Assembly (NCBI RefSeq): GCF_000003815.2 | Contig: NC_049980.1 | Span: 12,607,075-12,671,074 of the forward strand | Reading direction: 5' to 3' | Length of the DNA stretch: 64,000 nt | Source: Branchiostoma floridae | Taxonomy: Eukaryota; Chordata; Leptocardii; Amphioxiformes; Branchiostomatidae | In this document: one piece after another, positions 23,046 through 58,254 of the stretch | Layout: every line of letters begins with the position of its first letter | Position numbering within the stretch: the stretch's first letter is position 1 | The notes under the pieces: generated by a model | The model's database searches: none | Told to the model about the DNA's origin: nothing | The model's input: the letters and a program-made list of their open reading frames with translations, nothing else | Program-made: the position numbers and the translations under genes

Positions 23046-23106
23046 AAGACGAGTCCATCCTCCCGACCACTATCCGCCACCACACGTCTAGTACACACCC
23101 TGAAGA

Positions 23107-28960: not shown

Positions 28961-29270
28961 ATAGTGATCCCCCCGGGAGGTCATCACCCCGCCTGTGTAA
29001 GCGTCGAGAACCCCGTCAGACCTGACTCGACCACTTTTGTTCTGAGGAAAATGGCGGAGCTGTGAGGCGATAGGCATCCAGAAGGGCTGCAGTATCGTCT
29101 GTCTTCTTGGGGAATACATCTTGTCTGAGTCACCATCTTCTTGAAGATAATAGCATGCAAGCATGATTTAGACTTTGGAAAGTTGTAGAAAGTCGTTTGT
29201 AAGATCCGACCAGAAGAAAAAGACATTTTGGGGCGAGTACTCGTTTTGCTCGAGGCAAGTAGAATCAGAG
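28961..29270 (+). promoter_or_regulatory. Putative promoter and noncoding first exon of transporter gene 1
   Basis: Positions 28961-29125 align with 41471-41625, which lies at the same place relative to the paralogous gene. Shared blocks include GACCAC, AAAATGGCGGA (29048-29058, YY1-like), CGATAGGCA and GCAGTATCGTCT. A consensus donor (gtaagt) at 29271 would join to the acceptor at 30557-30558, 12 bp before the gene 1 ATG. Conservation stops well before the donor, so the exact transcription start is unknown. In both copies the ATG inside the motif opens a four-codon frame (ATG GCG GAG CTG TGA here). Confidence 0.55.
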
Positions 29271-30570: not shown

Positions 30571-33500
30571 ATGAGGAGCCCTCCCAAACGTCTGCTGGTG
30601 TACTCCCTCCTCCTGGCCAGCTTCTTCATATCAGGGGGGCTGTATCCCAGCATGCAACTGGGCTTGTCTGAAGCGGTGACCAAATGGGTACGTAGTTACA
30701 CACACTCACTCCAGAACATCATACCATGGTGCTGTGTCTTTATCGATATTACCTCGGATCCTTCAAGGAATCGAATATATGAAAAGATTTATGGATTTTT
30801 TTCTGGTTTCATAAATGAACTTTTGAATTTGTTTCGAAGTCAAGACCGCACAAAGCTCATGCTCAATCAGTGATGAGAGCCAGCGATAAATGATGTCTTG
30901 TGAAGTCAAAGTAGCTGGTATACCTTCCAATGATTGTTGTCCGTGTATATCACATCATTCTAAAACACTCAAGGTTGAGCTTTTCATCCGTACTGGGGCC
31001 AATCACGTGATTGATTACATCTGACAGCTCTGCTTCAAAGTAATTTTTCGGGCCCACGTATTTGTAGGCACATGTACAAGGAAGATGCAAACGAACAAAT
31101 AAATAAAAGGCCAGTATCTGAAGCACAACTTGAGAATCACACTGCAACACCCCAAATAGTTTTACGATCCATGTGCGTTAGCTTTGAAATTGTAATTTGT
31201 AATGTGATAGAACCGGTATTTAACGATGAAGAATTGACGATGATGTGCTACTCAAGTGTCACATTTGCTTAGAACTTCTTTGATGCAATCTTTCGGTCAA
31301 ATATACATATATGTGCAATAAATGGCTGGCTTGGGCCAAATTGGAAATATTTCTATTCTAAGGCGAATTCATAACTCTGTTTTGCATGCATTCAATGTAC
31401 AGAAATGGAACTTCAATTTATCTGTATTAGTTTGTTTGTTTTCATTACAAGTTAGCACATGGAATTCAAAGGGTTTTGAATGACTAAGGCCTAAGCATGG
31501 CAATGTTTGCAGAGCAGATGGTTCTTCTTAGGTGTGCAAAATTCTCTGTAGCTCTGAGCAGGTATTGTCACGGGGCATCAGTCATGTCGCTCGGTATGTA
31601 CCCTACGGCAACTTTGGCACATCGTTGGAAGCATTCAAACAATAGATTGGGCGGGAAAAGCAATCCAGGCAAAAATCAGACTTACAGAGAGAATTTAATC
31701 TATTGAATGTGATTGGATTTGCACAAGTTTGCCAACGTTGCAAATGTGAAAAGCCAGTTTGGACGCTCTATATCAATCTAAAGATTCACTATGTAAATAT
31801 AGTACCCATTTGAGCTGTGGCTGAGACGAAGGGTCAAGCTAGGGTATGCTATAGCCTGCGGATCAGACGACCAGAGGTTAACGAGTATTAAACGTATACA
31901 CCTCAAACTGTGAAAGTGGTGATAATCTCATATTTCTGTCAGTCGTTTTAATATTCTAGGCAGTAGAGATGGTTTTCAAAGTTTTCTTTTATCTCGCTGG
32001 TCTCAGTACGTGTGTCAGTGAAAGCAAAAATCCCCAACTGACTGCCTCGAGCGACAAGCTGACATTGTTTTGAGAGTGTCCCTCGTCCGGCTACTTATAA
32101 CAACAAAAGTCCTTTCATGGAGAACTGATTTCTTGTCTATCCAAGGATGAAATCGCCTCATCAGGGAAGCTTCGTCACACAATGACAAGGGAGTCAAGGG
32201 ACTAATTATTGAATAAGACGTCTAAACAGTACCACAGGTTCGATCAAGTAACAAAAACATATCTACACCGATGTATCTTATTGTGAATTAAACAGTTAAA
32301 AAAAAAAAAAACTTCTCACAAATGCAAACTGAACCTTTCGAGATGTTGAAATAAGCTGACATAACAAATTTCCCCGGGGGTACCTGCAGCCATGTCCTCC
32401 TTTCTCTACCGCATATGGTGCAAACATCCCAAATAACGTCCAACTTTTAGTTAATGGTTACTTATCTGATCAAAATACATGTGATGTCATGGCAAAGAAC
32501 TACTAATAAGCATGCTCTCTTGGGCTGATGTTTAGATAATGAGTGTTTTGCATTTTTTCGAACATGTGTGTATTTCTGCCTAGGGCAATACTCTTTACGT
32601 CACTCAATATTGGCAGGGACAGAGAAAAACTATTTGGCAAGAGAGTTTTTACTATTGACACAAATGGAAACAACTTCAGAAAGCAACTTCGTTAGTAAAA
32701 CCAAACTGTGTACAAAACATGTTCTGTAGTCAACAGTGAAATCATAATTAAACTCCGAAATAACGTAAACTTACATATACTCGTTACTATTCCGTTCTCT
32801 GTTGATATCAGTCTCAATGTTCCGTCGACCACATTTTGTCGACCTTACTTTACATTGGATCATCAACTTCTCTTCTGGCAATTCAATCTTTTGAATACAA
32901 CTGTCAGCATCGATGAGATGTACATGTGGTTACCTCTCCTGTGATGCCAATAAATCACCCTTATGCTTGCTGATGTGCCTTTTGTAAAAACATGTAAATA
33001 ATGCAAAAAAAATGAAAAGTATACGTACCATGATGATCTCCATGTGGTTTGTTACAGACGTTTTAACCGTATTTTCTAAAAAAAGATATATTCCTTATTC
33101 AAATCACATAACAAAGAAAGTGACTACTGGAAACGGCCGACCAACTCAATCTTTACTTTACTTTTGGCTAAACATTCAACAAAATGCATAACCACAAATA
33201 CGTTTGCTTGGTACGAGCTTTACCTTCTTTCACACCAGCTGCTAGCGTTCACCCTGTGTCTCTTGATTCTTCCTCTTGTATTTCTTGACGATGCTCTCTA
33301 CCGGTGACTTGTGTACCAACGATGTTGTCCTCACTACGTCCCTCACCACCAGGCTCCGTCCTCCAAGGTAAGTATGTAGTGTAGTCTTACCGTAGTGGTG
33401 GTGATTCTTATTGACATGTGCCAAGTAAAGGTAAGGTTGAATATAACGTTTTATATGAAGGACAAGTGACTAATATCTTCCTCTCCTCCTCTCGTTAAAC

Positions 33501-36500
33501 ACAGACCATTGCTGCTTATCATTGTCACAATTGCCGCTTTAATCAACACTACTACTCTCTCATGCAGCACAATGCACATCTTTACGACATGAAGTCGAGA
33601 TCTTGGTTGAATATTTATCGTTAAATAGAACCCAAAATAATGACCTTAACCCTGCCCAAAACTCATGGTTGGTTTCCTAACCTGTGACCCATGTGTTCCT
33701 GGTTGTACTTTACCCCCCGTTCTTACCAAACCCTTTAACAATTGTGTTAAGATATTGCTGTGTCGGTGAACATAAAGGCTAACAATAGATTATCAGTCAC
33801 CCTTTATACCCACTTACCTAACGTTTAGCTTCACCTTGATTAATACGTGACCCTTATTTAGCAAGAAATTAACTTGGTAATGCCCAAACTGTTTTGAGTA
33901 TAGGAACAGAATCATGTTCTGATTTAAAGATAGCAAACAATTTTGACGGGTTTAACTTTGAAGTGAAAAAGATAGAAATATCAAAGTAAAGAATGGATGA
34001 ACACTTTTTTTGTTATTGTATTAAAGCATGTATGCTAAAGATGTTAAAAAGTAGGATTTTCCGTTGAAGGAAATCGGAGAGGAAACACCAAGCAGTCGGG
34101 GAGAAATCCCATCTCCTTCCGTGCACGAGCAGAGGGGTGAAACAGAGAAGACGCCATGGTACATAAACTTCATCCGGGCATTTCTTGAGACGGAGCTCGG
34201 ACCAGATTCCAGGATATCTAAAAGGTCAACCAAACATAAGAAACACCATGTCCAAAGCCATGCAGCCGAAACATCAGACAAGCACGAGAAGAGAATCAAC
34301 CAGGAGGGCGAGGAGCCGTCATCTAAGATGGACACCAGAGAAGAGAAGGGCATCGGCTATGCTGTCGTTCAAGCCATGCAGGACTCAGAAAACGCGTTGC
34401 ACCAGTTTCTGAGAGAATCCCTCCTGACGAGGTCAGAAGAAGAAATCGAGGAAGAGCTAAATGAGAGAGTTAAGAAACAGGTAGCGTTATTTTGAAATAT
34501 TACCTACAAGTATAAGTTGACAATAATGAATCTTGATAGCAGGCAATGTCAGTACGTACCTTTGTAAAATTTCATCTTACCTCGTCTTCTGAAGCCTAAG
34601 TCAGACTTGTGTGTCATTCTCATATAGGACTGTATAACCACAGCTGAAGCTGCAGGACTGATCTCAAGTAGGAGTTTGCCCTAGTCAATATTGACCGAAG
34701 TAAAGTGAAAGTGATCATGCTATTCCTTGTCTGAACTGGTTGAAGTATCCAAGGTTGTTCGCTTGCTGTTTGAAACAATACTGACAATGATTAAATCCCC
34801 GTGTGCAGGATGACGGAGACTGGGTGCAGGCAATGGGTATAGTGCATCATCTGATGTTCCCCATTGGTCAGATCTTCTTTGCCTTTCCGGGCGGTTTTGT
34901 GGCAGCCAAGGGGTCAGCTGTGAAGTAAGTTTTCAACTATAACGACTTTATTAAGCATAATGTTGGCAAATTTAGTGATGTGCCCTCGATTTCTACCATT
35001 ATTGAATACCATTAGACAAGTTGAGGGCAGCAGGAAAATGATGAGACTATCGAGAACTGTGAACAATGTGTAATTCTAATTTTTCATTGTTCACCCAGAA
35101 TCCTAGGCACGATGATGTTCGTGTCGTGTCTGGTGCACCTGTTCGTCCCCCTGCCCATGACGTTCCGGGGGAGCCCCCACACCGGGGATGTGTCTGTGGC
35201 CGTCATGATGTTTCTAGAGGGCTGCTGCCAGGTAAGCAGTCACTGGATTGAAACATTGTACGGGAAGACAATTTCAAAGTGTTTAGCCTGCTTGAAAATT
35301 CTTTAAAAATGATGATTATCTTATTGACCTAGTCGAGGTTTTGTATCCAATGCACGTTTGGTATTTGAAGGCTAATGTTTTAACGTGTTTGACACACTCT
35401 TCTGACTGACAGGGAGTGACCATCCCTGCGGCGTACGGTGTGCTCCATCGTTGGGCTCCCAAGTCCGAGAGAAGTACCATGGTGTCACTCACTCTAGCAA
35501 GTAAGTAAAACCCATGTCCTACACGACCTTGCAAGGTTTTCTAACGTTCTCCAGACCATGGTTGGGAGTTACATGTACTAGTAGTCCTGAAAAAGGTAAT
35601 CTGTGGTCAGGAGTTAGGCCTTGAGGATGCATACTAGTCTTTAACAGTCGTCTGTGCAGCCGACTATTGAAAAATGAAAGCCGGGAAAGTCAGCTCGATC
35701 AGAAGGGCGAACTGAAGCTAGAATAGGGTAGAGCAAAGTCGTGGGGACGTTTCAAATGCGTGACAGGACAGAAGGAACCGGCACGACCGTAACGGCTTAC
35801 TGCTACCATACTGTCCAAGCTGCAACAGTTGAAGAACAGCTAACAGACATTGGCTTTGTATATATAAGGAAGATACTTAACTCCAGAATGAACTAACAGT
35901 TTATGTTTGGCTTCATAGCGTATTATCTAGGGAGGCTATCCGGTCAGTTTGCGTGTGCTGCCCTGAAACAAGCCCATGGATATATGCCTGCTTTCTACAT
36001 TTACGGTAAGAGTTCTATAGTCATATTTGTATTGGTTTTTTCATTATTATGTTATTTCTCTGGGGCCAATGTTTAAGTCCTTGATATTTGAATCCCTCCA
36101 TCCTATCTTTTCTCAGTAAACCGAATTCGAACCCCGTGAAATTTTCTTTTCTATTTACCCAAAAAGGGAAGCGAGATGATATCCATATCGACACATTGTG
36201 TCCTGTCACTAAGCACTACGCTCAAATCCCTCAGGTCCACTCGGTATCATTTGGTCGCTGGTATGGCTTCTCTCTGTGAAGCCCAACCCGAGTTTGGACG
36301 ACAACATCAACACGTCAGAGAGGGACGACATCAACTCCGGCAAGAACACGGCGCAGGTATGATGCTTTTACCCACTGGCTCGCACACGACTACAGAATGT
36401 AGCAGAAAAGTAAAGACAGTAAATGAGTTTCTGGGACTTTTGACCTAACTTCCTGTCAGTGTCAAAGTCAATCTTATGCATTCAAATAGCTAAGGACACT

Positions 36501-39200
36501 CAGGAAAACAAGCAGGCAAATAGGAATCAAAACCTATGTACACTAAGTTATCACATATCTCTGCCCATCTCTGAAAACGATTGCTCGGTGAACCACAGAT
36601 TGATGTTTTTCCAACAGGACGGAAGTGACATCCCGATGAAGGAAGTTCTGACAGACCGGAACACGGTATCATACCTGGCTACTGGCCTGTGTTTTGCCTG
36701 GGGTATGAGTGTACTGTTGAACCACGCACCGCAGTACTTCGCCGAGAAAGTCGCTCTGGACGTCGGAAAGGTACTGCATACGTAGCCATTAGTCAATTGG
36801 TACTTTGTACCAAAATAGCCACTTCAGATTGATTTTGCAACAAAATTATCATTATAAGATCGCTGAACTCATGCCAGACCTAGAAAAGAGCCTATATATG
36901 TTTGTACATACACGACTGTATTGGTAGCTGCTATCTAATCGAGTTGGGAAGCATTCTGAGGTTTGACTTGGTAACTTTGTTACAGTCATTGTAGTTATTC
37001 TAATGATTGTACCGTTTCAGTCACCTTGGCTGCTCTGGACGCTTCCCCTGGTGATGTCAGGAGGGATGTTGGCAGCCGGGCCCGGAACTGACATCGCCAT
37101 CTATAAGGGCGCCAGCACGACCACCACACGTAAAGCTGTGACTGGTTTTGGTGAGTGTGTTATCTTATTAACATTATGTGCATGAGATGGGGAAACGTAA
37201 AGACAAAAGTATGAATATGCGACTTGTTGGAATGGCGTCTACCTAGTACCTCTTCAAAACTGTCCATAACATTCCGTGCGATGTACATTAATTATATAAT
37301 AACAGGTGATGCGAATGTTTGTCTGACGACGAGGCCACATTCGTCGTAGGTCTTAGTAAGATTTTTTTATGTCGTACGACTTTCATCCAATGATAGGCTT
37401 TTGCGTAACAAAAAAACTGAGTTGTACATGTGCGATACATACATGCACGACTATCACGAGAATGCCCTCTGTTTACGATCGCTCCATGGTCTTACGATGG
37501 GTGTGATTACCCGTGGCTTTCTTGTGAACATAATGGCTTTCCGAGATAATCCTTCTCCTAAAAGTTTGATATTGTTTTCCCAGTCGGTGCTTGCGTATTC
37601 TCGTTCGTGATGGCGATGGCTTTCACCAAGAGCCAGGCTTACGCGTATGGAGGGACAGTGGCGTCCATGGTGATGATCGGCATGGCCATGGGAGGAGGTG
37701 GGTATCTTTGTAAAGATGTTCAATTTTACAAAACGGTACATCTTTGTTATCTGTTTCGGAATTGCTTTTGTGGATAGACTTTGGCTATTAGTACATGTAT
37801 GTGAGTCGTATTTCCTCACTTCAAAATTTTGTTGTATATTTTTATTAATTTATTAATTTATTTGCAAATTCATGCCCGAAGGCTAATTGCAAGGGTACAG
37901 ACAGTAAAAAAAGTAAGAAGTTTCTATTCTATACAGCTATCTATATACATGATTCTACATTGTTTACTGGGAGGTTTGACTTCTTCTTTGGAGGCAGTGG
38001 CTGATATATTAACAAGCAGTAGAAATGTCTAAAATCATACTGAATCCTGAATTTTGATTGAATCCAGGTTACGGCGTGACGCCATTGGATGCCTCGGACC
38101 GGTACAGCAGCATCGTTGTTGGTATCGGTGTGTCAATCAACACCGCGCTGTTCCTGGTCAGCCCTGTGGCTGTGATGGGGCTCAGCGGCCCTGGCGGGGT
38201 GAGTACCAACATGGCAGGGACATGAAAGTCTTGGGTTCTTCTGTTGTCTGTCATGATAGCGGTGGTCTTTTCAACGTTACGTTCCCATTGCCAACGATCA
38301 CTTTGTCTGTCAAATGGTATCAGGAACGACAAGCTGTACTTAACGGATTAACAAAGTTCTTTATACACAATCAAAGAATAGCCATAGCCGAAGTTTCGAT
38401 GATTTTTTGTTACCTTCCTCATGGACAATGTAGACTAGTTCTACTTTGCACTGCAACTATAGGTGTCGCTGCTGCCGTGTAAAAATCAGTATGAAACGTG
38501 TTGTTATCCCCCTCATAACGTAATGTGTACTTCGTGTGGTAAAGAATAAAGCAAAGAAAATGATAGGATATAGACAAAAATTGTTGACAAATGCCTTGCA
38601 TAACATTTTAAAACTTTCTCTGCCATCAGTCGGCGAAAAGACAAGTGGAGGCTGTGTCCGGCTGGCGAACAGTCCACATCGTTACAGCCGTGGTCATGGG
38701 CGTCGCCCCGATGATCTACGGCGCTGTAACAGGCGAGGGCGAGATCTTCAAGTAAGTGTTGTCTATTTCTGGTAGTGTCTATCACAGTAACCACACTGGC
38801 TGGGAGAATTATTTGCCATGGGAATTTTGCCATCATAGGCTCTCATTTGCCACACATTTCGCACAAGGGAAAATCTTACTCTAACTGCACGCTGCCTCTC
38901 CTGGCCAAGTATTCACCACATGTTTGCCAAATTCTACACATTCAAACCTGGTGGGAGTTATGTTTCCTGCACTTTGTTTGCTGTTATTATCTTCAGCCAC
39001 GCATTCATTTGTTTTCGGTATCTTTGATACAAAACCAATTTGGTATTTGATCTCTAACTACAAGTTAGATGAAGTAAGAAGTGGCACTATGATAATCATA
39101 AGTGACAAAGAAGTTGTGAGTTTTAACCAACATTTTCTCTCTCAACAGGGGATGGGAATTCAAGAAACCAAAGCTTCCCAAGTGGCTGAAACGTCGCTAA
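30571..39200 (+). CDS. SLC17-type (sialin/VGLUT-like) MFS transporter, gene 1
   Basis: Exons: 30571-30687, 34070-34480, 34809-34924, 35099-35231, 35413-35500, 35919-36005, 36235-36356, 36618-36770, 37021-37150, 37584-37697, 38068-38198, 38630-38751, 39149-39200. All joins are GT-AG and keep frame, giving 591 aa. SLC17 (organic anion transporter) landmarks are VHHLMFPIGQIFFAFPGG in TM2, GVT(I)PAAYG..RWAP..ERS (260-280) after TM4, FYIYG before TM6, IPMKEVLTDR before TM7, and LDASDRYSSI..GI before TM11. TM1 is about 8-33, then a very long Lys/His-rich, probably luminal loop (40-176), then TM2-TM12 up to about 566 and a basic tail ending KWLKRR. Unusual: no Arg in TM1, and Met252 and Gln259 stand where VGLUT-type proteins have the TM4 Arg and Glu. 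Transport of organic anions is therefore not assured. The substrate cannot be named. Confidence 0.87.
33264..33380 (+). other. Conserved intronic segment of gene 1 (matches 45606-45713)
   Basis: Inside intron 1, a block with TTGATTCTTCCTCT, TGCTCTC, CCAACGATG and a terminal GTAAGT is shared with intron 1 of module 2. An acceptor-like CACCAG precedes it at 33233-33238. If spliced in as an exon it would hit an in-frame stop, so it is either a leftover of the duplication, a poison exon or a regulatory element. Confidence 0.45.
35550..35760 (+). repeat. Dispersed repeat, copy 2 (partner at 1165-1440)
   Basis: Lies in the intron between exons 5 and 6 of gene 1. See the partner entry for the shared blocks. 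Confidence 0.5.
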
Positions 39201-39958: not shown

Positions 39959-39979
39959 AAGTGCATAATGTATCTTGTG

Positions 39980-41470: not shown

Positions 41471-41801
41471 TTAGTGACCTCCCCGGTAAGTCGTCACTTC
41501 GCCAGTGAAAGCGTATGGCCTATGGGACAACCCGTCTAAACAGGACCGACCACATTCTGTCCTGAAGAAAATGGCGGACTGGTGAGACGATAGGCACCAT
41601 CAGAGAGTTGCAGTATCGTCTTTTTCTGGCTAGTATCTTCTCCATATCACTCTCTATCGGAGAGGACTATCAGTCAAGAATGACGTAGATGTAGGCAGCT
41701 TGGGAAAAAGTGTAATTCTGTGAAGGTTCGAGAAGAAAAGGGAGGAAAGAGGCAGTTTGGTGATTGGACTCACGTTCCGCCTTAGGCAGGTGACACTACA
41801 G
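41471..41801 (+). promoter_or_regulatory. Putative promoter and noncoding first exon of module 2
   Basis: Paralogous to 28961-29270. AAAATGGCGGA is at 41568-41578, and CGATAGGCA and TTGCAGTATCGTC follow at the same spacing. A donor (gtaaga) at 41802 can splice to the acceptor at 43288-43289, 13 bp before the module 2 ATG. The motif ATG again opens a four-codon frame (ATG GCG GAC TGG TGA). The only further copy of this block would be expected ahead of module 3, and none is there. Confidence 0.55.
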
Positions 41802-43302: not shown

Positions 43303-46300
43303 ATGGGGAGCCCACCAAAACGTCTGCTGGTGTACTCCCTTCTTATGGTCAGCTTTTTCATCGCAGGAGGCCTGTATCCCAGCATACAGCTGGGTCTGTC
43401 AGAAGCAGTGACCAAATGGGTACGTACTAACACAAACATGATATCTGTCCCATGGTTTTAGGTATACCTTTTGGACTTCTTAGATTTGGTGTCAACGATA
43501 TGTGTTATATTTGGCCGATGCCGTTCCAGCTACATGTAGCTACTTTCAACAACGTACCAGAGAAAAGGTACAACACGAAACCCTTTATTCCAATTTTATA
43601 GGTACAGAAGTCGTTCCTAAATCATGAAGTGGTAACCTGATGTTTGATGGACCGATCATGGACGCATTTCTCACAAAGGCCAATCATTTTATTCTTAAAC
43701 AATGAAAACAAGTTGCATATCATGTGAACATGGAGTAATAGTAGTTTACACATCTACTATAAAAGTATATGGATACTATAAGAGTATATGGCTTTATATT
43801 AATCTTTTTTTTAACAATTTGATTATAACATATAGATTTGAATTTCATTATGCCACACCTCTTCCCTCTATACATGGAGCATGTTGATGGTCCTATGAAG
43901 GTGATATATGCGTGTTATAAAACCATAACGTTTAAACCATGTCTATCGGTAAAATAGATAATTGAAGTATTTTAAAACTAAGGCGCAAGACATGACCAGA
44001 CTCAAAATTAGAAGCACTAACATAAAAAGGTTAAACATATTGTAGCCTGTTAATAGAGGTTAAATCTGACATGTGGCAATTGATGCCGAACGATTCAATA
44101 TTGAATGATAGTTTTCACGTGTGGGACAAAACCTTCTTTTATTTCTTCTGTCGTAATATTTTCATTGAATAGTTAAATTGGATCTGATCCTGAATTCAAA
44201 TCCTGCAATGTTTGGATGACAGCATATGGAATACTAATGGAGTCTCTCCTACCCAACCTTATCAACTACATCACTAGGAATATACCCTTGGGCGAATTTG
44301 ACACCTCGCTGAAAGCATGATTTCGGGGATTTTAGGTGAGGAAACCAGGGTAGTCCAACAAAATAGGACAGTGGGATCGAAATGAAAATCATGAAAACAA
44401 TAATATTTATAACTCATATATAAGGCTCAGTCAGGAGGCACAGATAACTTTAGGTTCACCGCACAGGGGTCACTCCATAACCNNNNNNNNNNNNNNNNNN
44501 NNNNNNNNNNNNNNNNNNNNNNNNNNNNNNNNNNNNNNNNNNNNNNNNNNNNNNNNNNNNNNNNNNNNNNNNNNNNNNNNNNNNNNNNNNNNNNNNNNNN
44601 NNNNNNNNNNNNNNNNNNNNNNNNNNNNNNNNNNNNNNNNNNNNNNNNNNNNNNNNNNNNNNNNNNNNNNNNNNNNNNNNNNNNNNNNNNNNNNNNNNNN
44701 NNNNNNNNNNNNNNNNNNNNNNNNNNNNNNNNNNNNNNNNNNNNNNNNNNNNNNNNNNNNNNNNNNNNNNNNNNNNNNNNNNNNNNNNNNNNNNNNNNNN
44801 NNNNNNNNNNNNNNNNNNNNNNNNNNNNNNNNNNNNNNNNNNNNNNNNNNNNNNNNNNNNNNNNNNNNNNNNNNNNNNNNNNNNNNNNNNNNNNNNNNNN
44901 NNNNNNNNNNNNNNNNNNNNNNNNNNNNNNNNNNNNNNNNNNNNNNNNNNNNNNNNNNNNNNNNNNNNNNNNNNNNNNNNNNNNNNNNNNNNNNNNNNNN
45001 NNNNNNNNNNNNNNNNNNNNNNNNNNNNNNNNNNNNNNNNNNNNNNNNNNNNNGAAGGCAATAAATTTTACTTGTCCAAAGCATATAAACATATAGAAAC
45101 TATGTGCTCCCTTGGAGATCAATCCCAAGACGGATTGAATAGATAAATATCCATACGTATTCGAAATTTACAACGAAAGAGGTGAACTACAAAACTTGAT
45201 ATTGTTTGAGTCTGGTGGTCTAAATAAAAAAAAGTTTGGTTTAGCCCCATTTCATGGTCACAAATCTTTCTGTAACAGTTTTCATGATAGTGTCTGAGCT
45301 GAGGGTATATACCGGTCTAGAAATAGGATAATGTCGAACCAACCTCTCTCCTCTAAATAGTATCGTGCACATACAGGGTTCAGCAGCATAAGCATAAGCA
45401 ACATTATCTTAACTCTATTGTAAGACAGAGAGGTTGTTGGTCGTACTTAATCTTTTACTAGGCTGCACCAGACCTCACAAGGGAAGGATCTAAAGTCTGG
45501 ATGCTATCCTAGCCTTGATTTATGTATTGACTGGCATTGAATTCTGATCAGAATATTCTCTTTCGCAAGCTGTAGTTTTAGTCCTGTTGCTAAAGAAGAT
45601 ATCTTTGATTCTTCCTCTATACTTCTTCATGTTGCTCTCATGCCGATCCATCTGTCCCAACGATGCTACCTTCGACGCTTCTTGCAGTCTCCATCCTCAA
45701 GATCGGTAAGTTATGTCAACGAGATAAGTAAGATCGGTGACCACCCCCCCCCCCCCACACACCTTTCACGTGCCACCCTTTGGTAAAATCCGATCTCACC
45801 GAAGGACGAATCCAACACTGCACCCTGTGCCTTCCCCCCACCACTCCCGACTGACCTACCACAAAAAGACTACTGACGTTTTGCTTGGCTCGCTGGTGAA
45901 ATGCCTTATGGCTTACTTTTCATCTAAGATAGCATGAACATTCTTTTAGAGGAAGCACTAGTAACTGACAATGACGGTGACATACCCCCATATGGTCGCA
46001 CAAAACTTTCCCCATCACCTACCCATTGCACCGGTGCTTGGTATGACTGGAACGAAGACTATCAGTCAACTTCCAAATAACTACCCACCTCGTGTTCCTT
46101 TAATCAACTCACTATCCCAAAATTAAAAGCACATTTACTTCACCGTGTTTACTGTAAGTGCATCAGACTACATCTCTTACGACTACTTCTTCGATTTTAC
46201 GTAAAACATAGTCGTGTATGCACCATTTATCAACAATGTAACAATATTAATGTCGTCACGTAGCTCAAAGAAAGAATCTAACGTAACACATCAAAATCGT

Positions 46301-49300
46301 GGAATGCGGCAGGGCACAACAGATGCTGTCTTTTTCGAGGAAACTAGGTTTGAGAAAAGCTGTCATCTCCAGCAACGGATGAGCATTAATTAAAACTTGG
46401 GGTGTTGTTGCCTTTTCTCCATGTAGGATATAGGACAGGAAACACCAAGCAGTCGAGGAGAAATTCCGTCTTCCACGGAAAAGAAAGAACAGAAGACGCC
46501 TTGGTACATAAACTTCATCCGATCATTCTTAGAGACTGAGCTTGGAGCGGAATCCAAAGTGTCAAAAAGGTCGACCAAACATCACAAACATCATGCCAAA
46601 AAAGATCACGTGGTAGAAGTCAAGAGTGGACATGAGAAGAAGTCCAGTGACGAACACAGTGAAAAGTCGTCCGAGGCGACCAAGAGAAGAGAGAAGAGCG
46701 GCATCGCCTACGCTGCTGTTCGAGCAATGGAAGAATCAGAAGAGGCGTTAGACCAGTTCCTGAGGGAATCCCTTCTGAAGAGGTCAGACCAAGACGAGCT
46801 ATATGAAAAGTTTAAGAAACAGGTGAGACGCTTTCTTCGTTTTGTCAACAGCCATAGTTCAGTATCATATTCTATGTGGCCATCGAGATGATGTCTCGGA
46901 ACATTCCATCTACATTAAAGTTGTTAATTGTAATTTTATCTTATATGTAGAAATAGAAATGACAACATAAAATAACGCTAACGCCTAGTAGAAATATTAT
47001 TAATCCAATCGGCATAAGTTGATCTGAATTTAACTGCAATTCCCGTCAGGATGACGGAGACTGGGTGAAAGCCATGGGAGTGGTGCACCATCTGATGTAC
47101 CCCATTGGTCAGATCTTCTTCGCCTTTCCGGGCGGCTACTTCGCAGCCAAAGGGTCGGCAGTCAAGTAAGTTCATCTGCGTTTCAGTATCAGATATGATC
47201 ATTACTGTAAGTTTGTCTATGTTACATACAATACTTTTTATCACCTAGGTATCATCGCCAGTTCGCTCGTGTCAGATACATTTAATTAAGGACATCAACG
47301 GCAATTGTGAATTTTCCTAACATTTGATACATGTAATAGTACAAGTACGTAAGTAAGAGATCGGTAAAGTTTAACCCACCTTATGTACCATTTTATTGAC
47401 TGTCTTCTTCACCCACACTACAAGCCATTTACTTACTTTTTCTAATGGGTTTGTTCAGGTGTAAAAGTAAACGATTCTCCTGACCTTTGATGTATAACAT
47501 TTGACAGAATCCTGGGGACGATGATGTTTATATCGTGCCTGGTCCACCTGTTCGTGCCCCTGCCTATGAAGTTCCGTGATAGTCCTCACACAGCTGATGT
47601 CTCTGTGGCCGTCATGATGTTCATAGAGGGCAGCTGTCAGGTAACAACAGGAATCATGCTCTACTTGCTCACCATGCAGGAATCAAAACACTAACGATTT
47701 CATCACGTCTTCCAGATGTATGTGTTCGTGTGGGTTTGTACGACAGCACTAACATAGGGCAATAGTACATCACCAGTATGATTAGCAGCAATAATGCCAC
47801 AAAGGTCACCACAAAGGTGTGACTCGCGGGGAGGTAAGAAGTAGAGGTTAGATGTGGCAGGAAGTGGAGGTTAGAGTCGTTTTGGTTATCAGACATGACA
47901 GACATTCCAGGTCATAAGGTCGTTAGAAGAGGCTACTAATTCATTGGGAGGTCTTGTTTTTTGGTCTATTTGTCTGTGTTATTGTAGTTATAATTTCCTT
48001 ATGCTGGTCACATTCTTAGAGTGACAGGAATTGAGCAATGAACACATGTGTTGTTAATCAAATCATATTTGCATGCATGATAGATTAAATACTTTGAAGA
48101 CATACGACAAGCACTATTCCGCACTATGTGGATTCTACAGCCTTGATTTGATTATTAAGGCAGCGTATAAAAGCAGATATGACCTGCAATAGCTGGCTTT
48201 GTCGTGTATAATGGATGAAAAATATTGAACTGACACATAACTTTGTTTCGTCCAGGGAGCGACTATACCAGCAGCCTATGGTGTGCTCCACCGATGGGCT
48301 CCTATATCAGAAAGAAGTACCATGGTCGCACTTACCTTAGCAAGTAAGCAGTGAATTGAAATATGCATAATTATCTTTAAGCTTTTAAATATGATAATAA
48401 GTATTATCAAACTGTTTGTAAGTCATGATTCTGAGGCTAGGGTAAGAGATAAGAATTGATCTAAACAACATGTCTTTCTATATACATGTAGTAGTTGAAG
48501 TAGTAGACTGTCATGATGTATTACCTGTATTTGTGTACTCATTGTTAATTTGTTAATAAGTTATTCCAAATCATAGAATCATATTTCTCCATCTTTTGTC
48601 AGCATATTACCTGGGGAAACTGTCGGGTCAGTTTGCGTGTGCTGCCTTACAAGAAGCTCATGGGTACCTCCCTGCTTTCTACATCTACGGTAAGAATACC
48701 AACACTGTGATGTGTCTCACTTCATGTTCTTTATTACCGCCATGTATCGAGAGCTATTACTGTCGGTTCCTTGGGCATATAGGGTACAGGAAGTCAAAGG
48801 TCCTAAATGTTATCAAATGCCATATCATTTCCTGCCTTCAAAATACATGCCATATGCATAGACATAATCAGTAAGAAATACCCAATAATGAGCACAATAA
48901 GAAATTCATGACATTTGAAGAGTTTTGCTGAGGGATGAGATCTTCAATTGCTTGTATGTTATGATTCGTTTTGCATTCCCGTGATTTTGCAGTAATTTTG
49001 CTGTAGGCATTCTGGATTCAAAGATGACTGAAAAAGTCATCGTCATCGTGAATTATAGTATACCTGTACAACAACTACTTCGATATCTTTTTTTAACCAA
49101 GTGTTTTTGGATATTGGGCATTGGGTTTTTTAAGACTGATGCCTTGCCTTATAAGCCACGTTTCTTGTGGACATGTGACATTTATCGTATCTGTTTGTTT
49201 CCCCAGGCCCCCTCGGTCTCATTTGGGCCATAGTGTGGGTTCTCACGGTGAAGCCCAACCCCAGTTTAGACGACAACATTTCCACGAAGGAGAAGGATAA

Positions 49301-52300
49301 AATCAACTCCGGCAAAGACACAGGAATGGTCAGTCACATCTGCTTAGTACAGACCAGTGGTCTCTGACCCAGTCACATATGATTACTAGAAAAATATAAA
49401 TTAAAGATACGTCATTTAGCAGTGTGTCAAGACAGGGTTGTTCCTTTCACACGTTTATACTTTTCACACGTTTATACTTCTCACCATCACATGACATGTT
49501 TAGAAAAAAAGGTTGCGTTTGTCGTCTTCCATACTGTCCCCAAAACAAGTCAAACCTATGTTTCATTTCATTGAAATTGCAACAAGGCAATAAAGATGAT
49601 ACAGAATTTATACAGTGGAACATCTGAATAGAATAAAGCATTCGGCACATCAAAGTCAAACCTTTACTTGTAATTGTTGAGATTTAGAGTTAGCGTTGAA
49701 ATGAGAATGACATTATGTTATATTGTTCCTCATTCGCTGTTTGCGTCCTGCTTCATGCAAGCATCCTTAACCGTACCATTTTCATCCATCAGGATGGGAC
49801 TAAAATCCCGATGAAGGAGGTTCTGACAGACAGGAACACGGTATCATACCTGGCTACTGGCCTGTGTTTTGCCTGGGGGATGAGTGTACTGTTGAACCAC
49901 GCACCGCAGTACTTCGCCGAGAAGGTCGCTCTGGATGTCGGACAGGTATACTTCAATATTCTTTAGTACCCGTTCTAGTTCTCATTTGTTCTGTTTGTAC
50001 ATCTGCAGTTCCACATGACCTTAGGCTAACCGAAATGTATAGATGTACTGATAACTTACCAAGAAAGTAAACGGTTTCGTCAGTGACAAAACGTTGCGGA
50101 AAATTGCCTCAATTGTTTTGTTATTTTTCAGTCCCCCTGGCTGCTATGGACGTTGCCCTTAGTAATGGCAGGTGGGATGTTACTGGCCGGACCTGGAGCG
50201 GATGTCCTGATCAGTAAGGGCGCCAGTACGACGAAACTACGGAAAGTAGTCACTGGCTTCGGTAAGGAATAAAAGTTATTCTTGGGGAAGAGTGTAGAAC
50301 TGGGGAAATGATGGAAAGATATGTTGATACTGGAGTCCGTCAACAGTGTCTTGGAAGTAAAGAATGAACAATTTCAAGTAAACACTTATCCCATACTGAG
50401 ATATGTAGATTATGAACATTGGTATTGGCTACGATCATTCTCCTTCCTGTGTACATGAGTTGATCTTTCTCGTTCAAATACTGTTCTTTTTACAAAGCAT
50501 AATCTACACTATCATGAAAAAGGATTTGTACTGATACCAACTCTTTTTTCAGTGTGCACTTCTGTGTTCTCGTTCGTAATGGCAATGGCCTTCACCAAGG
50601 ACCCACAGTACGCGTACGGAGGGACAGTGGCGTCTTTAGTCATGATCGGCATGGCCATGGGAGGAGGTGGGTATTTTGTGGTTAGTTTTGGGGTCTTTAG
50701 GATGCACCTTGTTCTAAAACAACAAACTGAACTTTCAGAAAGCGTTCTCCATTTTGGCAAAACATAAACATACTGATGATACTTGTATTGAGATAAGCCT
50801 GATTCTTTGTTTTTCAGTGTATACAATCATAGTTCTTTTGTATCTTTTCGTGAAACCTGTCTCAGTGCATAATGGTTATGCTATTGCACTTCTAGTAAAC
50901 AGAGTTGGCTGACAGCTACCGCCTGCAAACAAATCTAGTAAAAATCGTCTCTGAAGATGAAGAGGGGGTCTCCTAGATAAAATTGCCGTCTGTAATGAAT
51001 CGCTTTGTTTGTACCCAGGTTACGGCGTGACGCCATTGGATGCCTCAGACCGGTACAGCAGCATCGTTGTTGGTATCGGCGTGTCTCTCAACACGATACT
51101 GTTCCTCGTCAGCCCTGTGATCGTTCTGGCACTCAACAAAGTAGAATTGGTGAGTGTCAAGACACACAAATCCATCCACAAACACGTACATGTAAATAAA
51201 TCTACGTCTTTAGCATGACCAAGGTAATATCTCAAGTTATCCTCTTAATAAACCTATCTAATTCTCAATAATCACAAGGGTCAGTCTTATTGATTGGAAC
51301 TAAAAACAAACATGGTAGATAAGGTGTCAATGCCACATTGCAGCTACATTTTCAACACTAGCTCTCTTGACACTGTTATGTATGAACCCCTCTCCCTGCA
51401 TTTTTGCTTCGATGTTTAAAACTGACTACTAGTCTTTATTTTTGCATCAGCCTTTCAAAAGACAGACAGAAGATGCTATCACCGGATGGAAAAACGTCCA
51501 CATCGTCACCGCTGTCGTCATAAGCGTCGCCCCGATCATCTATGGCATAGTGATGGGGAAAGGCAAATTGTTGACGTAAGTCTCGACTCTGTCTATCGTC
51601 CTGGCTGTAAGATCTAAGAAATGTGATGCAATGCGTTCGACGACGACACTTAATAAATCTTATGGTCGGTAGGCAGGTATTCTATTTCTATTTATTTTTC
51701 TCCAGTTTTAGTTTCCAGCCTACAATTGTAACAATGTAGGACTTCAATACATCAGGGCACTCGTGTGCTTAACATCATATTTTGATAATACAGATATGCA
51801 GGGTGCTGACGGTTTGGTGGGTCGTTTTGTATCACTTTGTTTGTTGGGAATGAGGAGAATGTACATGTATTGCTGGAAAACGATTCTACAATGTTTTCGT
51901 CACTCAAATCGAAAATGATATGACCCTTGACAGGGATCGACAAAGCTCAGCAGGTTTTGCTGGGGTCGTTCGGGTAACATGAGGCCTATCTGTACATAAT
52001 GTAAGACTTACTTCTAAGCAATGCCCTCTGAAGCTCAATTCAGCAAATCATATCATCTCTACGTTGTCCGAACTCGGTTGTTAACTGATGATAAACCGTT
52101 GTCTCCTTATCAACCCATTCAATATACGTCCTGTATTGTTGTAGCCTGGAATCCGCGCGCCGTGTTGTGCTTTGGTCGCTCTGCTTGCCAACAGTGTTGG
52201 CAGGAAGCGTACCTTAGGGGAGCGACCAAAGCACAACACGGCGGGATTCCAGGCTAGTATTGTTGATTGGTAATACAGTTATTGTTGTTCTCCTTAACTG

Positions 52301-52645
52301 AACAGATGGCCTCCCAAAAAACCCAAGCTTCCGAAGTTGGAATGGCCTTCCCTCCCAAAACTGAAGAAGCTGAAATGTCCATCATGTCCTTCCTTCCCAA
52401 AATTGAAGAAGCTGAAATGTCCATCGTGTCCCGGATGTCCCTCCTTCCCGAAACTAAAGAAGCTGAAACTCCCATCACTCCCATCGGTAAGTTCACTGAA
52501 GGTAAGACAGTTCTCGTCCCTATGTCGCTCGCCTATTGGTGGCTGCATAGGCGCCTTTGGAACGAGGTCAACATACGCAGGTGATCATAACTCATGGGTG
52601 ATCAATATGGGAACACTACTACATGATAAAAAACAAACAAACTAG
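43303..52645 (+). CDS. SLC17-type MFS transporter module 2 (N-terminal half of a probable fusion)
   Basis: Exons: 43303-43419, 46427-46822, 47050-47165, 47508-47640, 48256-48343, 48603-48689, 49207-49328, 49793-49945, 50132-50261, 50553-50666, 51019-51149, 51451-51575, 52306 onward. Exon lengths match gene 1 except exons 2, 12 and 13. Exon 8 differs from gene 1 at 3 of 51 residues. Landmarks are as in gene 1 (GQIFFAFPGG, ATIPAAYG..RWAP..ERS, FYIYG, LDASDRYSSI), and the TM1 Arg and TM4 Arg/Glu are likewise replaced. The TM1-TM2 loop (132 codons) is rich in Lys, His, Ser and Glu. Exon 13 encodes KKPKLPK and then three copies of a PS(L/F)PKLKKLK(C/L)PS(C/L) repeat. Read through, it stops at 52643-52645 (683 aa). 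More likely it splices from 52486 or 52501 (both phase 0) into 53154. Intron 1 contains a 571-N gap. Confidence 0.84.
44483..45053. other. Assembly gap (571 N)
   Basis: A run of 571 N inside intron 1 of module 2. Long X-only open frames here are meaningless. Confidence 1.
45743..45756 (+). repeat. Poly-C run
   Basis: Fourteen consecutive C at the end of the conserved intronic segment of module 2. Confidence 0.9.
52142..52256. mobile_element. Foldback MITE, 115 bp
   Basis: Arms of about 38 bp: the left begins TAGCCTGGAATCC and continues through GTGTTGTGCTTTGGTCGCTC; the right is its inverted copy ending GGATTCCAGGCTA. Mismatches are few. The loop holds a second small inverted repeat (GCCAACA/TGTTGGC). 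It is inserted 50 bp upstream of exon 13 of module 2, very near the acceptor. Confidence 0.85.
52346..52480 (+). repeat. 42-bp coding minisatellite in exon 13 of module 2
   Basis: Three copies (52346-52387, 52388-52438 with a 9-bp insert, 52439-52480) each encode PS(L/F)PKLKKLK(C/L)PS(C/L). A partial fourth copy at 52481 supplies the sequence of the splice donor. The units have no stops in three frames, so overlapping open frames on both strands are by-products. Gene 1 has the unexpanded ancestor-like KKPKLPKWLKRR at the same place. Confidence 0.88.
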
Positions 52646-53119
52646 GACTAAGATCCTTAGAGGCCAGAAGCTAGCCTTAGAGAGACTGGAAATGTCCTAC
52701 ACAAATATGAAACGTCATCACTGCGTACTGGGATGCATAAAAGCAATTCTGTGGAACATAGTAGCCTTCTGTATTTTTACGGTTAGTGGGGTCTTATAAT
52801 TAGGGTGACGGCTAAGGGATTCAAACAACATGGTGACAATGTTGCGAAGTTGCCTTGGTGAAATGTTTATGAATGTAAATATATCAAAGAATGTTAAGAT
52901 GCTAATTGCTACAATGATTGTAAAGAATCTTATCCCATACTACATATAGTTAGTTGAGCCGTAAGTTAAGCTATGTTAAGAACGGTAGTTATGTAGATGC
53001 CATACTTTGTACCTTGTACAAAATTGATGTATAGTTAGTACGTACATGCATGGAAACAGCATCTCATAGGAATAACTATTTGTTCTGTTAGAATATTCAT
53101 GATACTCACTTCCGTGTTT

Positions 53120-53153
53120 TACTAACATCTAGTATTGATTTTATCAATTACAG
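53120..53153 (+). promoter_or_regulatory. Branch point and 3' splice site before module 3
   Basis: TACTAAC, a perfect branch-point consensus, then a T-rich stretch and CAG immediately before 53154. This marks 53154 as an internal exon start rather than a transcription start. Confidence 0.65.
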
Positions 53154-56100
53154 TTGCCTAGCTGGAGCACCATCAAGAGGAAGGCACAAAAGCGTTACCT
53201 CATGGCTGCCATGTCTTCACTTGGCTTCATGATCCAATATGGCGGCCGGGCCAACCTGGCGGTCTCCATGGTAACCATGGTGATGCCCAACCCCTTGTCA
53301 AAGAGGCAACTACAGGTACTTAGATATGCTTTATAGGTCATAATGATATTGGGATGGCATAGAATTGTAATACCCGTACATGATTTTCAATCATATAACA
53401 TAAGCAACAAAATAATTCTTACTGATTCTGTTATTGCATTTACCCAATGGCCTCATAAGGCAATAGACATGAATGTAGCATTAAATTGAAGACAGGAAGT
53501 GAGATGGACTATTCCGGGGCCTTTCTGGCACCTTTGGCCTATCTACCTGTCGATGTCACCGACGTACATATCATTTGGATATCAGCCAGTTTACTTTCAT
53601 TCAAACAACCACAGACACAGAAGCGAACAGTCAAGATGCACCGAATCTCCATAGACTTGTATGGAAAGCGAACTCTTCGAGTTTTTGTAGGTTTTACTAG
53701 AACGTTAATTGAGAGGGGAATTTGAAGACCAAATCTAGACGTTCTGTGTGTTTTTTCTTTGTTGCAGTTTTCCAACTTGGACTGGGGCCCATACTCCCAG
53801 CTTGTCATGGGCGCTGTGCACGCCTCCTTCTTCCTGGGTCTGCTCGCCTCCCGGCCGTTTGCAAACCCCATCCTGCGGCGGGTCTACGCTACCAGGTCAG
53901 CTAAATAGTGACGTGTAGTATAGTATGGTATAGTGTAGTGTGGTAGGTTAATCTAGTGTAAGTCTAGTATACTATACGGTGTAGTTCAGTCTAGTCTAGT
54001 CTAGTCTAGTCTAGTACAATAATAACTTTTTCGTTTAACTTTGTATGTGAATTGTATGTTGCGTTTATATCCTAAGAATATTAGCAAGTTACAAATCAAA
54101 TGTCAACTAATAGACTTACTATCAAGTATGATATAGTGCCGCATGATATAGTGTGAAGAATTTTACAGAGTAGTATAGTACAGTGTAGCAGGCCTCAATT
54201 TCATGTATCAACTAAGTACCTATCAATCTAATTCTATCTATCTGATAGCTTACCATTTTTCCTCTTTACTGCGTCGACAGGGCGTTCGCATGTTCTATCT
54301 TCGTGTCGTCCATTCTGCACCTGCTGATCCCAGTGTCTGCCGCCGGTCACTACAGCGTCATCATGCTGGTCAGGATTCTGCAGGGGATGGCTGAGGTAAA
54401 ACTTGTCTTCTCTATATGTGATAAGGGGCATCGAATTGCCGAGTGATTAAGCCGACATAACATCGTGAGGTCGCAAGTTCGATTTCTGGCGCTCATGGCC
54501 AGACGTTGTATCCTTGAGAAAGATACTTTCACGACTTTCCTCATTCCCCTTATGTGTAAAAATGGGTACTAGACTACAATTGGGAGGTAAAAGGTGGTGG
54601 AATGAGAGGGTAGGCTTCGCCTTCCAATGCTGTGTAACAGACACAGTGGATAACAACCCAATGCCAACAACCTCGGAAGTCGTATTGGATTACCATTGCC
54701 GGAAGATCTGATTTAACAAAATGTGAAAGAAAGAAAGAAATTTACGGTTCCTGACGGACGCATGATTTTCCAGGGAATGACAACGCCAGCCATGTACGGA
54801 TTCTGGGTGAAATGGGCTCCGGCTAGTGAGATGAGCAGCATCAGTTCCTTCACCGTAACAGGTAGGCAGTAAGATAATAAAATATACCATACGAATAATG
54901 CAGATAAATCGGAATAAATGTTGAATACATGGGACTTACAATCGCATTTGAAGTATGTAGATTGTTGTCTGTTTTTTAAACGTTTACGCTGTTCAAGTGT
55001 CCTGGAGACGTCATGTGATGGAGCAAATATCGATATTTTCAATGCAGAATATTATCCATCAATATTGCAAAACTTTGCACCCCTGCAAGGTCAATTATCT
55101 GACCAAGTTTATATTCAGACCGCATATGTTACTTTTCAGGTCAGTACATCGGGATTGTTGTCGGGATGGTGGCATCAGGGTTCTTGGCGGAGTCCGCAGC
55201 AGAGTGGCCGTGCTCGTTCTACGTCTACGGTACGTGAGCACACTTCAGAGGTTATCTCGTATTTTTGTTGTGTTTGCTCCTCTCACTCACTCTCCTCTTA
55301 CTCCGTACTCTAACCGTAGACTTAGCCGATCTATTTTACTGCTATGTGACAGGAACATTACTGATGGTATCTCACTCACAGATGGTATCACCGCCACGAA
55401 GATATCAGTTGTACCGGATACAAGATCAAATCTCACTGTCTTGATTCATCATTGAGCTTTCACTTACGTTTTAGCTAAGATCTTCACTGAATTCAAAACG
55501 CATTTGCAGTGCTAGTCATAGCGTAAAATATCTTCATCTGGTGCTTACACATAGCTTTAGACATCTACTCCAGGACTTTTTATTTTCGGTAAAAAGGGTC
55601 TGAAACTATAACCAATGTATCGTATTTCTCACCAGGTGGTCTCGGCGTGGCGTGGTCCTTTATGTGGTTTGCCTCCGTGTACCCGACACCAGAGTTCGAC
55701 CCGGGAGTGACAGAGCAGGAGTGGAAAGCCATCATGTCACCTCCTCCTCCTCCGCCTCCTAAACCTGCGGTAAACTGACATCACACAGGGGGGCGCGGTA
55801 TCATGATATACTAATAAGCCACTGCATCCCAAATGCTGAAGTACGGAATAGAGTAAAATCACTAAACACATCGGTCTTACGAAGACCTAGCCTCTTAACC
55901 ACAGTAAAGAAAACTGAAATGATAAGGGCACGTGTCACGTCCGTCAGGACTAGTTAAGATAAAGATGAGATTATGGGGCTATGTCGAAAGCTAGCAGAAT
56001 TGAGGACAAATGTGCTCTTCGTGCCACTCTCTTTTCTCAATTTTGTATGTCGTTATAGATGAATGTTATAGGGTCTTAGTGGGTTCTATTCAGACAAGAA

Positions 56101-58254
56101 AACAACAACCATATATTGGGTTTTACCACAACACGAACAGGACGAAGAAGCGCCTCCTCCCGAGCCGCAACCGACTTACAAGCCAACCGACTCACCTTAC
56201 AAGTCCATGCTCAAGAGTCCAGCGGCGCTGTCCATCTGGGTGTGTGAAGTCTGTGTGAAGTGGGTCGTGTATTTGATGCTGACATTCGCACCTCTGTACT
56301 ACGTACAAGTACATGAGCAGCCGGTGTCTATGGTAAGTTTTCCTGTGCCACCATGATAAAATTGTGTAAATTGTGTTTTGCATCCTGCAATGATATATCT
56401 ACATAGCAGTACTGCATGCGTACCTGAATGTAACATCAGGTACAAGTCACAGGTACCGGTACCTTACCTGTACCTGTACCTGTACCTGAACAATTCAACA
56501 AATGATATGGTACATGCTTGATAACATATGGTGTTTGAGAATATGATTGAAGTCTCCCTCTTCCCCAGGCTGGCGTGTACAGCGGGGTACATTTTGCGCT
56601 GTTCACTGTCGGGCTGCCCCTGATAGGTTACCCGGCACGCGCAGCCACCAAGAGCCAGACAGTCTCTACAAACTTCATCAGAAAATCATTCAACTTCCTT
56701 GGTAAGAAAACACATTCATTTCAATTTGATCCTTAGAAAACGTTCTAAAGATGTAGGTGTTGGAAGTAGAGTAAGAAGCATGGGTCGTTGATCCCATTTT
56801 CTTGTGGAGAGTATCATTGATTTTTACCAACCCCAACAGGTCTCGCCACCGCCGGCAGTTTCCTGTTGTCCACAGCGTTGGAGGGAGACTCGCTGGAGAA
56901 GGTGGTGCCGTTCCTCACCACCGGCTTTGGCGCACTGGCATTCCCGCTAGCAGCAGGTGTGTCATTTGTCTCCTATATCATTTCACTGAGTAAGAATTAC
57001 GTCAATAGCATGTCTCATTATGTACAGAAAATCTCAAAGCTGTTTCGTCAAGGCAAAGGAGTGTGTATTTCTAACACCACTAGCAAGCATTAATGTTACC
57101 GTGTCGAGAATAGGATAAAAAGTGAGGTTTGTGCTAAACAGGAGAAACATTCCGACGATTATCATTATTGAATCAATCAATCGTAAATAGGGGAACAAAG
57201 CATTTCATTCCAGATATTTTTTTGTCATCGACTTGATACAGGTCACGGCCTACTTCGCCTATTCCTTGAATACCAGGGTTCACTTGTATGAACTAGACTT
57301 CACTTTAATGAGTACATTTTTGTATTGTAGGGTACAATGTGAACGCGCTGGACATCGCAGGGGTTCATGCCAGTAAGTTGATGGGCGTGTCCGGCGGCCT
57401 GTCCACCATCATGGGGATCATCACACCCATCTGTGTAGGAGGAGGTACCCTACATCAGGTACGGCACAACACCGTGTTCCCTTTATAAATACATGTACAA
57501 TTTCAACATTCACTCCATCAAACTCTGTGCCCCTGAAATCAAGGTAATCACGGTGAAAGTGGCCAAGAACTTGTAGCAGAGAACTGATGCCATAACGCAC
57601 CCACAATGGTGGATGTTGAATGATACCGCGCTTATTTTGACAAAGAAATCGCATCCCTGTCCCTGGTGCTTACTGTTTCCCTGTCCCTGGTGCTGACAGT
57701 GTTTCCCTGTCCCTGGTACTGACTGTCTTTCCCTGTCCCCGACAGTGTTTTTCTAGTCCCTGGTGCTGACTGTGTTTCCCTGTCCCTGGTACTGACTGTG
57801 TTTCCCCCTCCTTGGTGCTGACAGTGTTTCCCTGTCCCTGGTGCTGACAGTGTTTCCCTGCCCTGGTACTGACTGTGTTTCCCTGTCCCTGGTGTTGACA
57901 GTGTTTCCCTGTTCCTGATTGTGTTTCCCTGTCCCTGGTGCTGACGCTGCTTCCCTGCGTGAGTTAAGAATTGTTATCCCTGTACACTCTTTACAGAATG
58001 CTGAAGAGTGGAATATCATCTGGACGGTGTCGGCTGGTCTCCTGTTCAGCAGCGCCACAATCTTCCTCTGCTGCGGCTCGGGGTCACCGGAAGACTGGTC
58101 CGGTGCAGCACCGGCCCCTAGCGAGGCATCGAGTTCTGCAGCCTCGACATCAGGCGATTCCGAACCGACTGACTCAGACGAGAAGCCGGAGGACAAGCCT
58201 GCCGAAGACAAGCCAGCAGAGGATAAGCCAGAAGAGGATAAGCCAGCAGAGTGA
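53154..58254 (+). CDS. SLC17-type MFS transporter module 3 (C-terminal half of the probable fusion)
   Basis: Exons: 53154-53315, 53768-53895, 54281-54395, 54774-54861, 55140-55229, 55636-55769, 56141-56332, 56569-56701, 56840-56956, 57331-57458, 57997-58254. All joins are in frame (514 aa from TTG at 53154). It keeps family residues missing from gene 1 and module 2: Arg32 in TM1 (GGRANLAVSMV), and Arg128 and Glu135 in TM4 (VRILQGMAE|GMTTP). FYVYG and the TM11 motif NVNALDIA are present. The PGG of TM2 and the Arg of ERS are changed. Introns after TM4 (phase 0), before TM5 and after FYVYG (phase 1) match gene 1. A Pro-rich cytoplasmic linker (PPPPPPPKP) precedes TM7, and the tail is an acidic EDKPAEDKPEEDKPAE repeat. 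Membrane transport of an organic anion with H+ or Na+ is the family role. The substrate is unknown. If independent, the first Met is at 53202 inside TM1. Confidence 0.84.
53915..54015 (+). repeat. TAGTA/TCTAG low-complexity tract
   Basis: Degenerate AGTAT/AGTGT units lead into about six AGTCT units (53987-54014). Intronic. Confidence 0.85.
54425..54710 (+). mobile_element. tRNA-derived SINE in module 3 intron
   Basis: The tRNA-like head has a B-box-like AAGTTCGATTTC near 54474. The body has TTGAGAAAGATACTTTCACG, then a GTGTAAAAATGGGTAC block, a GGTAAAAGGTGGTGGAA block and ACAGTGGATAACAACCCAAT. It lies between exons 3 and 4 of module 3, sense orientation. Related to 27005-27290. Confidence 0.75.
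56421..56490 (+). repeat. GTACCT-rich tract
   Basis: Imperfect repeats of TACCTG, including four adjacent TGTACC units around 56465-56488, in the intron between exons 7 and 8 of module 3. Confidence 0.8.
57655..57957 (+). repeat. 26-bp intronic minisatellite, about 11-12 copies
   Basis: Units of CCCTGTCCCTGGTGCTGACA plus GTGTTT run head to tail, ending 40 bp before the last exon of module 3. The array is pyrimidine-rich and contains many ACAG steps, so it may supply or extend the polypyrimidine tract. The 152-codon - strand frame over it is an artefact. Confidence 0.9.

Follow-up and report, generated by a model that had tools for sequence, protein, structure and literature searches.

Do two adjacent transporter modules of the SLC17 family in the lancelet Branchiostoma floridae encode two proteins, or are they the halves of a single one of double length? 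This question is raised by the DNA analysed here, a window of 64,000 nucleotides (nt) on contig C2 (C2:12607075-12671074) of a genome of 513 Mb in 431 contigs. An earlier note on this window had proposed that two of its modules, here the A-type M2 and the VGLUT-like B-type M3, are joined in a covalent pseudo-dimer of two non-identical transporters, and this is the best reading of the genome that we can offer, backed by a further A-B locus on contig C4. Judged from the DNA, M2 and M3 are probably one gene (43303..58254, + strand, 25 coding exons), which would encode one double-length protein of 1151 amino acids (aa).

Results

In line with the earlier note, two SLC17 modules lie in one open frame with matching phases, and Pfam places two MFS_1 stretches in the spliced 1151-aa model (186 bits; one stretch, 87 bits, in the A-type paralogue M1). 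The M2 gene model has 14 exons (43303-52486), of which coding exons 1-13 (43303..51575) carry the SLC17 fold, with a loop of ~140 aa separating transmembrane segments (TM) 1 and 2, and exon 14 (e14, 52306..52486, phase 2 in and phase 0 out, WPPKKPKLPKLEWPSLPKLKKLKCPSC...KLKLPSLPS) forms the linker. After a junction intron of 667 nt (52487..53153), M3 follows with 11 exons, 514 aa and a TGA stop (53154..58254). In PDB sequence searches VGLUT2 was matched by M3 at E 1e-68 (residues 13-469) and by M2 at E 3e-33 (residues 184-534, TM1 lying outside the matched part); the matches of the modules at E 0.001 or better were to VGLUT, sialin and a D-galactonate transporter, with NorA for M3 only, and no nitrate porter was among them for M2 or M3. 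Exons e4-e12 of M2 and e2-e10 of M3 present an identical run of intron phases (2,0,1,1,0,0,1,1,0), so both modules descend from one ancestral SLC17 gene. Two repeats lie in coding sequence, one of 42 bp in the linker exon (52342-52431) and one of 15 bp in the M3 tail, which is charged and EDKPA-like (58189-58251), and the last M3 intron (57654-57957) holds a minisatellite with units of ~26 bp.

At the junction, two adjoining phase-0 donors are found at the end of M2, 52486 (TCG/GTAAGT, the slash marking the splice site) and 52501 (AAG/GTAAGA). The splice from 52486 to 53154 is in frame and gives the open 1151-aa model, and use of 52501 adds VSSLK in frame, for a product of 1156 aa. On the contig these donors correspond to C2:12659560 and C2:12659575, and the acceptor to C2:12660228. 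The earlier note had called these donors strong, and in fact each of them scores at least as high as 44 of the 51 other modelled donors of these genes, while only 7 of the 4154 GTs on the + strand of the window, real donors included, reach the score of 52486. Junction donor scores were 10.3 and 10.6 in C2 and 9.9 in the C4 locus. Unassigned donors that match the weakest of them number 28 (0.00017 per nt over the window and the C4 region, both strands), so that the expected chance of such a donor with matching phase per terminal open reading frame is 0.019 for C2 and 0.015 for C4. Furthermore, four other terminal exons were scanned for their best donor, namely those of M1, M3, the C4 B module and the single gene L048 (for the last 505 nt counted from where its last exon starts, its stop not being placed); the values, 2.3, 3.9, 4.8 and 5.1, lie far below the 10.6 and 9.9 at the A ends.

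On the other side of the intron, M3 starts at a phase-0 acceptor (53154) with a branch-point-like TACTAAC heptamer at 53120..53126, 27 nt ahead of the B exon. A candidate promoter or 5' untranslated region is found ahead of M1 (28962..29100, + strand) and again ahead of M2 (41472..41621, + strand), the two blocks being 74% identical by blastn (E 1e-16). The earlier claim that M3 has no copy of this block held, as 52487-53320 shows matches of only 12-17 nt to the two upstream regions. It is also true that neither AATAAA nor ATTAAA occurs in 52487-53153, but this carries no weight: the probability of finding neither in 667 nt is 0.42 by density, both are missing in 13 of 22 introns of 300-1200 nt, and the 700 nt past the M1 and M3 stops lack them likewise. 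The missing poly(A) signal was dropped as evidence for a fusion. A search of the C2 junction intron for a hidden linker resembling VGLUT exon 2 yielded nothing credible (best E 1.4, on the wrong strand and with a stop).

An R-Y motif stands just before TM1 in VGLUT2, VGLUT3 and sialin and in all six other lancelet SLC17-like loci that were read at this position (L048, L067, L068, L069 with L072, L070, and L071). In M3 the first Met is residue 17, directly after KRYL at the start of TM1, in agreement with the earlier note; a start there would remove the R-Y motif, which argues that M3 is translated from an upstream coding exon. Of the six loci, L067, L068 and L071 offer a Met further upstream without a break in the open frame, the ATG of L048 is in the preceding exon (MAPNRIS...CPCPK/GFMPKRY), and the first exons of L069 and L070 were not found.

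When A-type proteins were used as queries against the same genome, strong matches were obtained only at C2 (M1 and M2) and at one locus on C4, the remaining matches being weak and of a general SLC17 kind; these match counts are lower bounds, the scoring having covered the best candidates only. The C4 locus (L047 and L053, C4:10347000-10366400, minus strand) contains an A and then a B module on a single strand, in the same order as in the window, and the gene runs from 10361492 down to the B stop at 10347980. Its fused model has 1681 aa and no internal stop. The A module begins MGLVSDAWRRVPRRF, its loop exon measures 1032 nt, and the gene also has three additional exons in the TM6-TM7 loop. The last A exon encodes a Lys/Pro-rich (K/P) tail followed by ...APMSWYK and ends in a phase-2 donor (CAA/GTAAGT) that overlaps an in-frame TAA. 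From this donor (C4:10352867) a 335-nt intron leads, in phase 2, to an acceptor at 10352531 and a linker exon (KVLDGVPKPDINYPTVDWFQLPTQKALCSCMPKRYL), which is joined in phase 0 to the TM1 exon. The intron phases of the C4 B module equal those of M3 (0,1,1,0,0,1,1,0, counted from the start of B3 with the carried-over phase 2 added). Over the VGLUT2 columns, M2 and C4 A are 28% identical, M3 and C4 B 43%. Because so distant a pair has the same joined layout, the fusion looks real and old rather than an accident of annotation; and because A precedes B in the C4 gene too, again with a linker joined by splicing, the modules should have been fused, or at the least paired, before the two loci split.

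The C4 linker exon could be compared with the N-terminal exon of a VGLUT-like gene on the same contig (C4:6933656-6933824, AFKKDTDEKG...LCDRTPCANLTKRYQ, phase 2 in and phase 0 out), which directly precedes a TM1 exon (IAILSCIGF); this gene (C4:6933.7k) is taken as single-domain from the absence of strong A-type matches there. As both exons have the same phases and end point, the last A exon in the C4 gene seems to have replaced the preceding VGLUT exon, that is, to have taken the place of the first one. The phase-0 intron in the window lies 16 codons further upstream than in C4 (LPS/LPSWSTIKRKAQKRYL), and the phase-2 intron is located before the K/P tail in the window and after it in C4. The junctions are thus alike in their phases (2, then 0) and unlike in exact position, so that one ancestral A-B fusion behind both loci is likely, not proven. 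A maximum-likelihood tree (9 sequences, 437 columns) grouped M3 with C4 B (100/93) and set M1, M2 and C4 A apart from all others (100/100), which at face value places the A-B pairing before the separation of the loci.

M1 (30571..39200, + strand, 14 exons, 596 aa) is a stand-alone A-type paralogue with 75% identity to M2, and with M2 and M3 it makes three SLC17/VGLUT-like modules, all on the + strand. It terminates with KKPKLPKWLKRR and a TAA stop (39200) in the counterpart of the M2 linker exon, the gene model giving KLPKWLKRR as its C-terminus. No B-like remnant was found past it (39201-43302), and it looks like a later A-only duplicate. Matching microexons are present in the TM1-TM2 loops of M1 (33353-33367, 15 nt, APSSK) and M2 (45688-45705, 18 nt, SPSSRS), with phase-0 introns on either side in the models.

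The residues relevant to transport were read from the alignment to VGLUT2, using R88, H128, R184, E191 and R322, which we take to be the TM1 Arg, TM2 His, TM4 Arg and Glu and TM7 Arg. R88, H128, R184 and E191 are all kept in the B modules of both C2 and C4. R322 is not: both B modules have V there with an adjoining Lys, and L048 has F, also with an adjoining Lys. In M1, M2 and C4 A, respectively, the TM1 Arg is Y, Y and Q, E191 is Q, Q and T, and R184 is M, M and R; at the TM2 His the A-module alignment is gapped and uncertain. The VGLUT2 chain of PDB 7t3n has Q at both TM4 positions (R184 and E191). A crude hydropathy count gave 21 segments for one fused model and 23 for the other, compared with 11 in a single VGLUT-like control.

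Elsewhere in the window, an open frame at 23104-23412 (+ strand) has a start resembling a signal peptide (MLRATLCLVVLSLLAASLQADEAEDMRRF...) and by eye could encode a small secreted or neuropeptide-like product. An Rfam scan of the whole window returned nothing at gathering score.

Discussion

Several observations qualify or weigh against a single M2-M3 gene or a common origin of the two loci. The phase-0 acceptor and TACTAAC of the earlier note are present, but the acceptor scores below average (13 of 51 acceptors equal or lower) and is outscored by an AG at 53092, from which the M3 frame hits a stop before 53139. The peptide repeat that had been said to run on across the junction does so (PSLPS/LPS), but by just three residues, and the linker repeats gave no clear synonymous bias, with 5 synonymous and 4 non-synonymous changes in the coding frame and 6 and 4 in a wrong frame. 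Measured from the K/P tail and from the KRY motif, the C2 and C4 junction introns differ in position, the 9-sequence set is small with long A branches, so that long-branch attraction may aid the A grouping, and the VGLUT-like comparison gene has a weak to average exon-2 acceptor (9 of 60 score no higher) and an exon 1 that was not located. To these must be added five candidate first exons for M3 in the window junction intron (donor at least 3.9; the best running from an ATG at 52623 to 52781, donor 6.4), a Met just before KRY in the C4 linker exon (CSCMPKRYL), from which C4 B could possibly start after a non-coding 5' exon, and the C4 A frame, which, if unspliced, would terminate at its TAA.

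The fusion could also be a regulated or read-through isoform, with a stand-alone A protein made by intron retention and the A-B protein by splicing. Stops in frame follow both donors, directly at the donor in C4 and at 52643-52645 in C2, where unspliced e14 would end, and M1 demonstrates that an A-only protein is encoded as a gene; yet B would still need the fused transcript, and the C2 junction intron contains neither AATAAA nor ATTAAA, a weak point. We regard this coexistence, which is compatible with one M2-M3 gene, as somewhat improbable. Two separate tandem genes are an improbable explanation, in which M2 would read on to its stop at 52645 or be ended by a poly(A) site that escaped recognition, M3 would have its own promoter and an unrecognised Met exon, and C4 B could start at the CSCMPKRYL Met. 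The five candidate exons and that Met are what such genes would use, the single-domain relative L048 has its own ATG-bearing N-terminal exon, and M1 stands alone as an A gene. However, M3 has no upstream block; at least one candidate first exon also turned up in 351 of 500 random tries (tries on N runs being skipped yet counted within the 500), and the best candidate would place a hydrophobic stretch ahead of TM1. Moreover, within the 335-nt C4 intron no stretch from an ATG to a donor scoring 3.9 or more would make a first exon of matching phase, the frame followed upstream from the C4 linker exon reaches a stop before any Met, and strong in-frame donors are found at both A ends and not in the four other terminal exons. 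Trans-splicing of a spliced leader onto the 53154 acceptor, within an operon-like transcript, seems very improbable. It would account for B starting at a bare acceptor, and tunicates have both operons and trans-splicing (PMC4122922); but the operon passages of that review mention tunicates, nematodes, flatworms and possibly Hydra but no lancelets, the KRY motif of M3 precedes its first Met and would be lost with a leader lacking AUG, and the C4 linker exon fits the A exon in phase 2.

If M2 and M3 are one gene, its transcript would begin around the 41.5-kb block and run through the A module with its K/P-rich C-terminal exon, to which the phase-0 splice from 52486 (or 52501) to 53154 would add B. 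The product would be a single polytopic protein of ~1151 aa, and the hydropathy counts are consistent with 12+12 helices in the fused models; its short Lys/Pro-rich linker would be cytosolic, which fits its Lys-rich make-up. VGLUTs are single 12-helix chains, and the fused open frames of C2 and C4 argue, at the level of predicted genes, against a single 12-helix unit in each gene. By their residues the halves are not equivalent, A being a degenerate SLC17 and B keeping four VGLUT residues, so in the product an active B transporter is most likely tied to an A half of another kind, which bears a long TM1-TM2 loop. The B half would function as a VGLUT-type anion transporter, and the tethered A half could assist in folding, sorting or gating.

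The B module aligns across the whole fold with VGLUT2 and VGLUT3 (SLC17A6/A8; PDB 8sbe, 7t3n, 7t3o, 9wix), but these PDB chains have 531-582 aa, and B differs by V at R322 and, in M3, by the lack of a Met before R-Y. Sialin (SLC17A5) and L048, on C4, have fold and family in common with the modules, but both are single-domain, and L048 has an N-terminal exon of its own. Four VGLUT-related sequences, one of them a true orthologue, have been reported in B. floridae (PMC3484041). Among the titles and abstract openings listed by literature searches on fused SLC17 proteins and on the amphioxus SLC17 set, none dealt with an SLC17 fusion, and by word count PMC2824716 does not contain the word fusion. 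A close parallel is NarK of Paracoccus denitrificans, in which NarK1 and NarK2, two non-identical MFS transporters, share a single 24-helix chain; its variable linker is viewed as a tether that could favour the heterodimer, and each half alone supports growth (PMC5217062). The likeness lies in two MFS domains per chain, here in a predicted splice form only. However, NarK is bacterial and of the nitrate/nitrite family, whereas the lancelet pair is an animal SLC17 with one degenerate half, joined by splicing. As proposed for NarK1-NarK2, the tether would set a ratio of one A to one B.

The chances are about even that an old family of SLC17 proteins persists in lancelets, each an obligate pseudo-heterodimer of 24 helices in which a VGLUT-like transporter is covalently bound to a pseudo-transporter half whose TM1-TM2 loop is large. 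Such a family would have arisen when a terminal A exon was spliced into a second VGLUT exon, possibly with the A stop-codon region as donor, and would survive in two diverged loci. The only natural covalent MFS dimer found in our literature search was the bacterial NarK. A conserved animal case that couples a canonical half to a degenerate one would provide a system of fixed stoichiometry for studying whether SLC17 transporters work in pairs and what the role of a non-transporting partner is, and it would illustrate a simple route to fusion, in which splicing skips a stop codon and enters exon 2 of the adjacent gene.

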